Below are positions 44,635 through 63,992 of a DNA stretch of 64,000 nt, piece after piece. Numbering within the stretch: position 1 is the stretch's first letter; each line of letters starts with the position of its first letter. The stretch is taken from assembly GCF_016025255.1 (NCBI RefSeq), contig NZ_CP065592.1, forward strand, positions 663,122 to 727,121. The letters run 5' to 3'. Made by a program: the position numbers and the translations under genes. A model generated the notes under the pieces. It searched no databases. It was not told the origin of the DNA and saw only the letters and a program-made list of their open reading frames with translations. Source of the DNA: Sphingosinicella flava (GTDB lineage: Bacteria > Pseudomonadota > Alphaproteobacteria > Sphingomonadales > Sphingomonadaceae).

Positions 44635-44741
44635 CCCCTCCCCCTTGATGGGGGAGGCCGGGTGGGGTGATCTACGGCGTAGAGCTCCTTCCTTCCGGAA
44701 ACATCACCCCCACCCCAACCCTCCCCCATTAAGGGGGAAGG
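44635..44741. repeat. paired inverted repeat, family C (CCTCCCCC...GGGGGAGG)
   Basis: An element that fills the whole 109-base convergent gap between the CoA-transferase and GNAT stops. Its left half carries CCCTCCCCCTTGATGGGGGA and GGTGGGGTGATCTACG; its right half carries CATCACCCCCACCCC and CCCCCATTAAGGGGG, so inner and outer arms pair. A second, longer copy is at 62611-62777 with the same loop words (GTGATCTACG, CCTTCCGGA). It may serve as a bidirectional terminator. Confidence 0.8.
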
Positions 44742-45516: not shown

Positions 45517-45621
45517 GCGTATTTCCTGAAATGCGGCTGGTTCCGACCAGCCCGTGGAAGTCGCCCGCGCCTCTACAGGCTCCTCCCTGAATTGACAAGC
45601 GGCGGCGGCGTGATAGCAGGG

Positions 45622-45740
45622 CGGCGGTGAAGGTGCCCTTGCAAAAGGGTGAAAAGGGAAGCCGGGGAACGTCCGGCGCTGTGCCCGCAACTGTGAACGC
45701 CCCGGCATCGGGGCAAAGCCAGGAGACCTGCCTTCCCATG
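45622..45740 (+). promoter_or_regulatory. cobalamin (AdoCbl) riboswitch
   Basis: Conserved words occur in the right order: GGTGCCC near 45632, AGGGAAGCCGG near 45655, GCTGTGCCCGCAACTGTGA at 45678-45696, and the B12 box GCCAGGAGACCTGCC at 45718-45732. It lies about 95 bases before btuF and should shut the transporter operon off when adenosylcobalamin is plentiful. The rest of the 318-base rpmE-btuF gap holds the promoter region upstream and about 95 bases of leader downstream, in which I see no further gene. Confidence 0.95.
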
Positions 45741-45834
45741 TCGTCCGCATCGGGCCGGGTCCAGCCATGATGCGCGGCACTCCCGCTTGCGGAGTTCCTT
45801 CGAGACGGCGAACGATGTCGCGTGGAGGAAGAGG

Positions 45835-61375: not shown

Positions 61376-62593
61376 GTGGCCAAGATCAAAGTGAAAACGC
61401 CGGTCGTCGAGCTCGACGGCGACGAAATGACCCGCATCATCTGGCAATGGATTCGCGAGCGGCTGATCCTCCCCTATCTCGACATCGACCTCAAATATTA
61501 CGACCTCTCCGTCGAGAATCGCGACGCGACCGAGGACAAGGTAACGGTCGAGGCGGCCGAGGCGATCAAGCAGTACGGCGTCGGCGTGAAGTGCGCCACG
61601 ATCACGCCGGACGAAGCGCGGGTCGAGGAGTTCGGCCTCAAGAAGATGTGGAAGTCGCCCAACGGCACGATCCGCAACATCCTGGGCGGCGTCGTCTTCC
61701 GCGAGCCGATCGTCATCGACAACGTCCCGCGCCTCATCCCGGGCTGGACCGATCCCATCGTCGTCGGCCGTCATGCGTTCGGCGATCAATATAAAGCGAC
61801 CGATTTCAAGGTGCCCGGCCCCGGCAAGCTGCGCATGGTGTGGGAAGGCGAAAATGGCGAGCGGATCGAAGAGGAAGTATTCGACTTCCCGAGCGCCGGC
61901 GTCGCCATGGGGATGTACAATCTCGACGAGTCGATCCGCGACTTCGCCCGCGCCAGCATGAATTACGGCCTCGCGCGCGGCTGGCCGGTCTATCTGTCGA
62001 CCAAGAACACGATCCTCAAAGCCTATGACGGCCGCTTCAAGGACATCTTTCAGGAAGTTTTCGACAGCGAATTCAAGGAGAAATTCGCCGAAGCGAAGAT
62101 CGTTTATGAGCATCGCCTGATCGACGACATGGTCGCCTCCGCCTTGAAATGGAGCGGCAAGTTCGTCTGGGCCTGCAAGAATTATGACGGCGACGTGCAG
62201 TCCGACCAGGTGGCGCAAGGCTTCGGCTCGCTTGGCCTCATGACGTCGGTGCTGATGAGCCCGGACGGCAAGACCATCGAGGCGGAAGCGGCGCATGGCA
62301 CCGTCACCCGCCACTACCGCATGCACCAGCAGGGCAAGGCGACCTCGACCAACCCGATCGCGTCCATCTTCGCCTGGACCGGCGGCCTCAAATATCGCGG
62401 CAAGTTCGATGGCACGCCGGAAGTGACGCGCTTCGCTGAAACCCTCGAAAAGGTGTGCATCAAGACGGTCGAAAGCGGGCAGATGACCAAGGATCTCGCC
62501 ATCCTGATCGGCCCGGAGCAGAGCTGGATGACGACGGAGCAATTCTTCGAGGCGATCCGCGCCAATCTTGAGAAGGAAATGTCTATAGCCTAA
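61376..62593 (+). CDS. icd: isocitrate dehydrogenase (NADP-dependent)
   Basis: TCA-cycle enzyme oxidising isocitrate to 2-oxoglutarate. The 405-residue protein is the homodimeric, eukaryote-like type: [17 protein letters not shown] at the N-terminus, the substrate loop [49 protein letters not shown] with metal Asp residues, and [18 protein letters not shown] for NADP binding. GTG start, with GAGGAAG about 7 bases upstream. A large repeat element follows. Confidence 0.97.
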
Positions 62594-62610: not shown

Positions 62611-62777
62611 CCCTCCCCCTCGATGGGGGAGGCTGGGTGGGGGTGATCTACGACGTAGGGCACGATCCTTCCGGATGCATCACCCCCACCCAACCAGCGC
62701 CGGGTCGGCCATGCTCCCAGCATGGCCTGAACAGCGCGGGGCGCTGTTCACCCGGCACTCCCATCAAGGGAGAAGGC
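62611..62777. repeat. family C inverted-repeat element with a nested three-way-junction insert
   Basis: A longer relative of the element at 44635-44741, in the convergent gap between icd and the monooxygenase gene. Outer words CCCTCCCCCTCGATGGGGGA, GTGATCTACG, CCTTCCGGA and CATCACCCCCACCCAACC are shared. After CCAACC, where the other copy continues directly, this copy has about 60 extra bases (62698-62758) that form the structured insert described separately. Confidence 0.8.
62700..62757. repeat. perfect three-way-junction palindrome nested in the family C element
   Basis: An outer 7-bp stem (GCCGGGT at 62700-62706 with ACCCGGC at 62751-62757) encloses two perfect 9-bp hairpins: GGCCATGCT-CCC-AGCATGGCC (62708-62728) and GAACAGCGC-GGG-GCGCTGTTC (62730-62750). 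Only one unpaired base stands between neighbouring stems. Function unknown. Confidence 0.7.
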
Positions 62778-63992
62778 TCAGGATGGCGAGCGCACATGCT
62801 CCGGGCGAATCCCAAAGCCCAGGAAGGCGGCGGGGATTCGGCGGAGCAAGGGCCAACGATCCAGCCACCGGAGCACGCGCGGCGGTTCGAACGCGCCGCC
62901 TCGATCGGCCAGCAAGGGCTGGATGATCCGTTTCTGCGCCGCGTCCTGAAATGCCTGGATCGTGCGGACCTGCAGCCTTCGCCTCTTCTCGACACGGCCA
63001 AGCAAAGGATCGACATCCTCGCCCCGCGCCATCGGCCCGGCGAGGATGTTCGCCGCCGCCACCGCATCCTGCACCGCGACGTTGATGCCGACGCCGCCAA
63101 TGGGCGACATGGCGTGGGCGGCATCGCCGATCACCAGCAACCCGGGCTTGTGCCACGTTTCCAGCCGGTCCAGCGCGACGCTCAGGAGCTTGACGTCGCC
63201 CCAACTCTGGATCGCGCCCACCGCGTCCGCCACCATCGGTGCCGCGCGTGCGACGTCGGCGCGGAAGGCGTCCAGCCCGGAAGCCTTGACCGCCGCCTCT
63301 TGGCCCTTGCCGAAGACATAGGCGCATTGCCAGTAATCGCCGCGATCGATGAGCGCCATGATCCGCCCGGCGACGAACACGCCCGTGCTGCGATTGTCCG
63401 GCGTGCGCGCCTTGGGCAGGCGGAACCAGAAGACGTCCATCGGCGCGCCCATTGAGCGAATTTTGAAACCGGCCTCCTCGCGGAGGACCGAGCGGCGGCC
63501 GTCCGCGGCGATGACGAGGCGGGCGCGTATTTCCCGTTCGGCACCGCTTTCCTCGTACCTGACGCCGGTGACGCGTCCCCCTTCAGCGATCAGTCCTGTG
63601 GCCTCGGCATGCATGATGAGCCGGAAATTGGGGTAGAGCCGGGCTTCGTCCGCGACGAAATCGAGAAAGTCCCATTGCGGCATCATCGCGATGAAATTCC
63701 AGCGCGGGTTGAAGCCGGAGAAATCCGCGATCTTCAGGTAGCGGTCGCCGATGAAGCCGCCGAGGCCATGGACCTTGTCGTGCGGGCGCCGGAGCAGCTT
63801 TTCCAGCAGGCCCATTTCGTGGAACAACCGCAACGTGGAGGGATGGACGGTGTCGCCCCGGAAGTCGCGCAGGAAATCGCCATGCTTTTCGAGGACGATG
63901 GTGCGCACCCCGGCGCGGGCGAAGAGGAGGCCCGCCACCATGCCCGCCGGACCGCCGCCGACGATGCAAAGATCGGCTTCAAGCGCTTCCAT
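62778..63992 (-). CDS. FAD-dependent monooxygenase (UbiH/PHBH-like)
   Basis: A 404-residue group A flavoprotein hydroxylase. It begins EADLCIVGGGPAGMVAGLLFARAG (dinucleotide fold), has LVIAADGRRSVLREEAG (the DG motif region) and LLVIGDAAHAMSPIGGVGINVAVQDAV, the second FAD motif with GD. Such enzymes hydroxylate aromatic rings; no neighbour indicates the substrate, and it is not obviously a ubiquinone-pathway member. Met at 63992 leaves eight bases to the window end; the gene appears complete. Confidence 0.9.
   Translation of the reverse strand: MEALEADLCIVGGGPAGMVAGLLFARAGVRTIVLEKHGDFLRDFRGDTVHPSTLRLFHEMGLLEKLLRRPHDKVHGLGGFIGDRYLKIADFSGFNPRWNFIAMMPQWDFLDFVADEARLYPNFRLIMHAEATGLIAEGGRVTGVRYEESGAEREIRARLVIAADGRRSVLREEAGFKIRSMGAPMDVFWFRLPKARTPDNRSTGVFVAGRIMALIDRGDYWQCAYVFGKGQEAAVKASGLDAFRADVARAAPMVADAVGAIQSWGDVKLLSVALDRLETWHKPGLLVIGDAAHAMSPIGGVGINVAVQDAVAAANILAGPMARGEDVDPLLGRVEKRRRLQVRTIQAFQDAAQKRIIQPLLADRGGAFEPPRVLRWLDRWPLLRRIPAAFLGFGIRPEHVRSPS

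Follow-up and report, generated by a model that had tools for sequence, protein, structure and literature searches.

A Palindromic Block Within a Larger Repeat

The window (the whole 64,000-nucleotide stretch of Sphingosinicella flava DNA analyzed here) raises the question of how a compact block of paired bases came to lie inside another repeat. This host repeat is palindromic as well and is larger than the block; it consists of a hairpin, a long stem, and a second hairpin and lies between two convergent genes. A sequence-only reading had described it as a perfect three-way junction of 58 nt at 62700-62757, with a 7-bp outer stem around two 9-bp hairpins, and as a discrete insert, on the grounds that a sister repeat lacks it and is contiguous at the corresponding point. 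It could then be a small mobile palindrome, a protein-binding cruciform or an RNA 3'-end structure or, if it had neither further copies nor compensatory changes in relatives, a one-off sequence.

The three-way junction is borne out, and the whole element is 64 nt long (62696-62759; table 1), laid out as AGCGCCGGGT-C-GGCCATGCT-CCC-AGCATGGCC-T-GAACAGCGC-GGG-GCGCTGTTC-ACCCGGCACT. The fold of 7, 9, and 9 bp is present exactly as first described, although at 62699-62756, one base lower than the span given for it, and the 7-bp outer stem is real but falls 3 bp short of the true stem, which has 10 bp and one mismatch. By RNA folding, the energy of 62696-62762 is -44.8 kcal/mol compared with a shuffled mean of -27.6 (SD 3.2; z = -5.4), and 0 of 200 shuffles folded as well. 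A covariance model built from 38 copies, the window copy among them, scores 90.7 bits (E 9e-18) on one strand of the element and 48.2 bits on the other. The matches on both strands reflect the element's near two-fold symmetry, its loops and the bases around them being mutually reverse-complementary. The mobile unit is two head-to-head units, each composed, from the outside inwards, of GGGT and a 9-bp hairpin with a CCC loop. The two stand one base apart, and the outer arm that encloses them is self-complementary and measures 10 bp, or ∼20 bp in a minority of elements. No second element was found when the model was scanned across the 64-kb window, and an Rfam search at the locus matched no curated family. 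Elsewhere in the window, a Cobalamin riboswitch (Rfam RF00174, 74.8 bits) is located at 45614-45749. The host mosaic repeat (44635-44741 and 62611-62772 in the window; L099, L100, L230, and L410 elsewhere) is itself widespread and is also found in frame within genes.

Table 1. Positions of the element, its host repeats, and the adjacent genes in the window
Feature	Position	Strand	Basis
Complete three-way-junction element, 64 nt	62696..62759	.	Structure and homology to copies in own and other genomes
Outer-stem 5' arm AGCGCCGGGT	62696..62705	.	Pairs with 62750-62759, one C.A mismatch
Hairpin 1, 9 bp, loop CCC at 62716-62718	62707..62727	.	Sequence; compensatory changes in most stem pairs
Hairpin 2, 9 bp, loop GGG at 62738-62740	62729..62749	.	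Sequence; compensatory changes
Outer-stem 3' arm ACCCGGCACT	62750..62759	.	Partner of 62696-62705
Host repeat, left hairpin CCTCCCCC-TCGAT-GGGGGAGG	62612..62632	.	Inverted repeat I7; common to sister repeat
Host repeat, left arm of long stem	62631..62647	.	94% pairing with 62679-62695
Host repeat, right arm of long stem, final host bases before element	62679..62695	.	Alignment to sister repeat
Host repeat, right-hairpin remnant (CCCATCAAGGGAG)	62760..62772	.	Comparison with 44721-44737; the element takes the place of the CTCC that stands before the remnant in the empty sister
Sister host repeat, empty; CTCC at 44721-44724 is the tetranucleotide that the element replaces	44635..44741	.	
Isocitrate dehydrogenase gene (icd)	61376..62593	+	ORF; ends 102 bases before element
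FAD-dependent monooxygenase-like gene, convergent	62778..63992	-	ORF; named from reading its translation; ends 19 bases after element

Conservation of Structure Among Copies

Compensatory changes maintain the structure while the sequence drifts. Among 38 copies chosen for sequence similarity, pairing holds in 96% of cells, and both sides have changed in 19 of 28 pairs; neither value was matched in any of 500 shuffles. A larger structural set of 216 contexts representing 197 distinct elements, itself selected for pairing, agrees. The covariance that the sequence-only reading had put forward as a check is thus present.

The least variable parts are the GGT-C of the junction, the loops CCC and GGG (in hairpin 1 of 193 and hairpin 2 of 191 of the 197 distinct elements, respectively), and the loop-adjacent bases. 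Positions 1-7 of the outer arm differ among copies with pairing mostly kept, and one identical 44-nt core is found with 14 different arm pairs, most of them still complementary (for example, AGTGTTGGGT/ACCCAACACT, AGTTTCGGGT/ACCCGAAACT, and ATGATCGGGT/ACCCGATCAT). The arms form terminal inverted repeats, mostly of 10 bp and in some cases of 18-21 bp (179 unique elements). Outer stems of the long-arm class (L123, L124, L193, L194, L082, L126, and L182) amount to about two helical turns versus one in the common form, and the long arms of L123, L124, and L193 are unrelated in sequence despite the same or similar hairpins. In every stretch read except one, hairpin 2 comes immediately after hairpin 1, and single units are nearly absent.

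Copies and Distribution

The element is multicopy and, in the genomes sampled, confined to one bacterial family. BLASTN against the own genome (2.42 Mb) recovers five near-identical copies, and the hairpin pattern and covariance model together place the element at nine loci. A one-off sequence is ruled out by the copies and the covariation alike. Of 26 genomes from the genus, 8 contain the 63-base sequence, as do 31 of 401 from the family. Covariance model R1 detects the element in at least 31 of 251 family genomes and at least 17 of 96 genera, with a highest load of ∼20 copies in a single genome; these copy counts are lower bounds, with limited candidates scored per genome.

A scan of named genomes returned at least 120 contig stretches and, among the matches listed, all are from Sphingomonas, Sphingobium, or other Sphingomonadales/Sphingomonadaceae. 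Samples of the order and class yielded no match beyond the family, and phages and E. coli yielded none. Plasmid matches comprise two records, from Sphingomonas parapaucimobilis only. IMG/VR contigs with the element (L315-L321) bear phage- or GTA-like structural genes. The element is probably restricted to one bacterial family, which in named records is Sphingomonadaceae. A literature search on palindromic elements, REP, or RAYT in sphingomonads found no relevant description; a few sphingomonad CGTC repeats are included in a study of REPs (PMC3733652), but these belong to a different family. The elements of ∼64 bases seemingly form a family of mobile elements undescribed so far.

Insertion by Replacement of Target Bases

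Filled and empty sites reveal how the element is accommodated. The sister repeat reads AACC-CTCC-CCCATTAAGG and the filled site reads AACC-[64 nt]-CCCATCAAGG; four bases have been exchanged for the element. The sister does lack the block, as first described, but is not strictly contiguous at the corresponding point. Most copies sit within a hairpin of the host repeat and split one of its arms, usually at a fixed position from which GGAG (CTCC on the other strand) is missing; CAGG-[element]-GGGTTGG is found in place of the expected CAGGGGAGGGTTGG. Other repeats have lost CTGG or CGGG instead (L079 and L081). These losses are judged from the opposite hairpin arm, which is intact. Copies enter host hairpins in either orientation (142 vs. 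51).

The same exchange is seen most cleanly in genes. In trmFO, the nearest relative, G025, reads AACAAGGG-TGAA-GGGAAGG, and the own genome has 64 nt where TGAA stands. In genome G228, a second, broken rpoA carries four elements that replace 4, 4, 4, and 5 nt when aligned to the intact rpoA. This partial second copy beside an intact one (L128, G228:C1:2131500-2136500) has served as a natural insertion trap. At every site with both a filled and an empty version to compare, ∼4 bp of target is replaced, and none of the compared sites shows a target-site duplication. G-rich arms of other palindromic repeats are the preferred targets, and genes are entered as well.

The net gain of the common 64-nt form is 60 bases and the reading frame is therefore kept. 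Six genic copies are in frame, in trmFO (own genome), uvrA, a biotin-dependent carboxylase, dnaE, a phage-type terminase (on an IMG/VR contig), and cobN. The own TrmFO has a net insert of 20 residues, absent from relatives, from a diverged copy of the element (G000:C1:734853-734918; L107/L130) ∼7.7 kb beyond the window. The cobN copy is on a Sphingomonas parapaucimobilis plasmid, and the annotated gene continues through the element. In uvrA, the carboxylase gene, dnaE, and cobN, the host repeat is also within the gene. Among these copies, the element is read in two or more frames. The replacement of ∼4 bases, the in-frame genic copies, and the full length of the outer stem had all escaped the sequence-only reading.

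Presence and Absence in Relatives

Presence of the element varies between close relatives. In 1.2 Mb of G025, six of the nine own loci have recognizable orthologous positions, and the element is absent at all six. One of these sites is a host repeat without the element, one is a solo host hairpin, and one is an uninterrupted trmFO; the solo hairpin is all that lies downstream of the isocitrate dehydrogenase gene in G025. Two copies are present elsewhere on the same G025 contig. Empty sites, a further check named in the sequence-only reading, are found at orthologous positions in G025, trmFO among them, and in the sister repeat. A small mobile palindrome is supported by the many copies, the use of both orientations at one target, the empty sites, and the insertions into genes and unrelated repeats. 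The same observations uphold a discrete insert, although not a plain one, given the ∼4 target bases replaced.

We consider it likely that the block in the window is a non-autonomous mobile palindromic element of the REP/RPE kind, probably selfish and specific to one family. Counting against this explanation, neither an autonomous relative nor an enzyme was found, no transposition event within a species was seen, and orthologous copies have diverged little. Older, shared copies also exist. In six orthologous pairs between other species, 3 of 406 element bases differ, compared with 123 of 707 in the adjacent 60 bases and 344 of 2711 further out, an estimate biased by the fetching of five pairs with the exact hairpin-1 pattern and the filtering of all six for intact stems. 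With that bias, the low divergence suggests selection or correction, and being lower than in the flanks, it could mean selection for function rather than selfishness.

Comparison With Known Palindromic Elements

Rickettsia palindromic elements (RPEs) are small, geneless palindromes that are lineage-restricted and occur both between genes and in frame in conserved genes (PMC2229807, PMC10969869). The sphingomonad element is alike in all of these respects, including the in-frame insertion in conserved genes that marks RPE-like protein-coding palindromes. The two differ in that RPEs are long stem-loops of 105-150 bp with a conserved peptide, whereas the element is a 64-nt three-way junction with CCC and GGG loops that is read in two or more frames. 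The comparison with RPE families proper is by their description; a class-wide model search gave no match outside the element's own family.

A closer relationship to REPs is conceivable. The element would then be a REP/REPIN member, a head-to-head REP dimer mobilized by a RAYT (Y1) transposase. REPs are reported within DNA-repair genes, including uvrA and dnaE-type genes (PMC3733652). Like REP dimers and REPINs, the element has two GC-rich hairpins with tags outside, is multicopy and mostly intergenic, has some copies within palindromes, and has others in uvrA and dnaE-type genes. Moreover, Y1_Tnp is more common where the element is present (14 of 31 genomes) than where it is absent (23 of 220). 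However, neither a GTAG nor a CGTC tag is present; in 216 contexts, hairpin 1 is preceded by GGTC, with 96-100% conservation per base. The loops are 3 nt and the stems 9 bp, compared with loops of 4-5 nt and stems of 8-9 bp in CGTC-type REPs (PMC3733652), and the element is an obligate dimer with one base between its units. The variable outer stem that closes the three-way junction is an additional feature. Two element copies (L079 and L081) lie within repeats that resemble CGTC REPs.

Neither the own genome nor the flanks of RAYT genes elsewhere provided a cognate RAYT. The own genome, with nine copies of the element, has no match to Y1_Tnp, and no copy was near any of 17 RAYT-like genes examined, many of which sit among other repeats. 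The association of Y1_Tnp with the element may reflect lineage and genome size. RAYT genes of Sphingomonadaceae (L339-L355) are flanked by short repeats of their own, of the GGGGACACAATACTA and ATTACGGTGACAGTTTACTA types. RAYT was rejected as the cognate enzyme, the association being weak and the RAYT flanks bearing other repeats. Membership in REP/REPIN is, on this evidence, unlikely. No recurrent transposase-like gene family was seen beside copies, and among the stretches read from the named-genome scan, there was no autonomous form with the two hairpins split around a gene.

Like MITEs, the element is short and non-autonomous, has terminal inverted repeats, and has empty sites in relatives. 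In contrast to MITEs, it replaces ∼4 bp instead of duplicating its target, and no parental transposon, or autonomous transposon with ends in common, was found. IS1272 offers a partial precedent, in that it targets palindromes and removes target bases without duplicating any. But the whole IS replaces an entire stem-loop of 21-85 bp (PMC5678879), whereas the element exchanges 4 bp, also inserts outside palindromes, and has no transposase gene. Because the tests for REPs (tag, loop, and RAYT) and for MITEs (target duplication and parental transposon) fail, we file the element outside any named family.

Alternative Explanations and a Possible Mechanism

The fold may instead be kept for its transcript, as an RNA element that protects 3' ends, terminates transcription bidirectionally, or acts as a small RNA. 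The strong compensatory evolution, the fixed loops, the apparently small divergence of orthologous copies, and the location of the window copy 3' of two convergent genes are all consistent with this. Conversely, the near symmetry gives the same fold from both strands, there is no T-run, and Rfam offers no match. Presence and absence differ among near relatives. A main role at RNA 3' ends is further opposed by copies within coding sequences, on either strand, and apparently between divergent genes (L003 and L004). Judged from sequence, such an RNA role would be slightly less probable again than membership in REP/REPIN.

It is very unlikely that the element is itself immobile and travels only as a passenger within the host mosaic repeat, with recombination between mosaic copies as the means of spread. 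Several own-genome copies do have host repeat, position, and arms in common, and these may have spread simply as part of the mosaic. The mosaic also enters genes along with the element (uvrA, carboxylase, dnaE, and cobN), and at L258/L308, orthologous loci of two Sphingomonas genomes, mosaic and element are in opposite orientation. However, insertions occur without the host mosaic in trmFO, the rpoA paralog (four), and unrelated CGTC-type repeats, and the host repeat lacks the element at an orthologous site in G025. An intron-like or bypassed element removed from mRNA, an idea prompted by the four copies that break the frame of the G228 rpoA sequence, is scarcely credible and was rejected, because an intact rpoA of 410 codons ∼5 kb away makes the broken one a pseudogene and the six other genic copies, being in frame, need no removal.

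A non-autonomous mobile palindrome could spread as follows. Folded DNA, either a cruciform or single-stranded, would be recognized through the GGGT.C junction and the loops by an enzyme acting in trans. One outer arm would be kept identical to the other by copying, either self-templated or through a template switch, and the element may also spread as a single unit together with its host mosaic repeat. Arms that change in concert could arise without selection if palindromes are corrected by template switching, yet such correction does not account for the fixed loops. More speculatively, folded three-way-junction DNA may be joined to the target with a loss of 4 bp and one arm re-synthesized from the other. 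We put this undescribed chemistry forward as a rather doubtful proposal; if true, each site or lineage would bear its own self-complementary arm around a fixed core.

Implications for Sphingomonad Genomes

The rule of exchanging ∼4 bp of target with no duplication, combined with an obligate three-way junction whose arms covary, is outside the definitions of REP, RPE, and MITE that were compared. For annotation, the element calls for caution, since its copies lengthen essential proteins by ∼20 residues or more and also occur in pseudogenes. How RPEs and other protein-coding palindromes spread can now be asked of free-living sphingomonads that grow in the laboratory.
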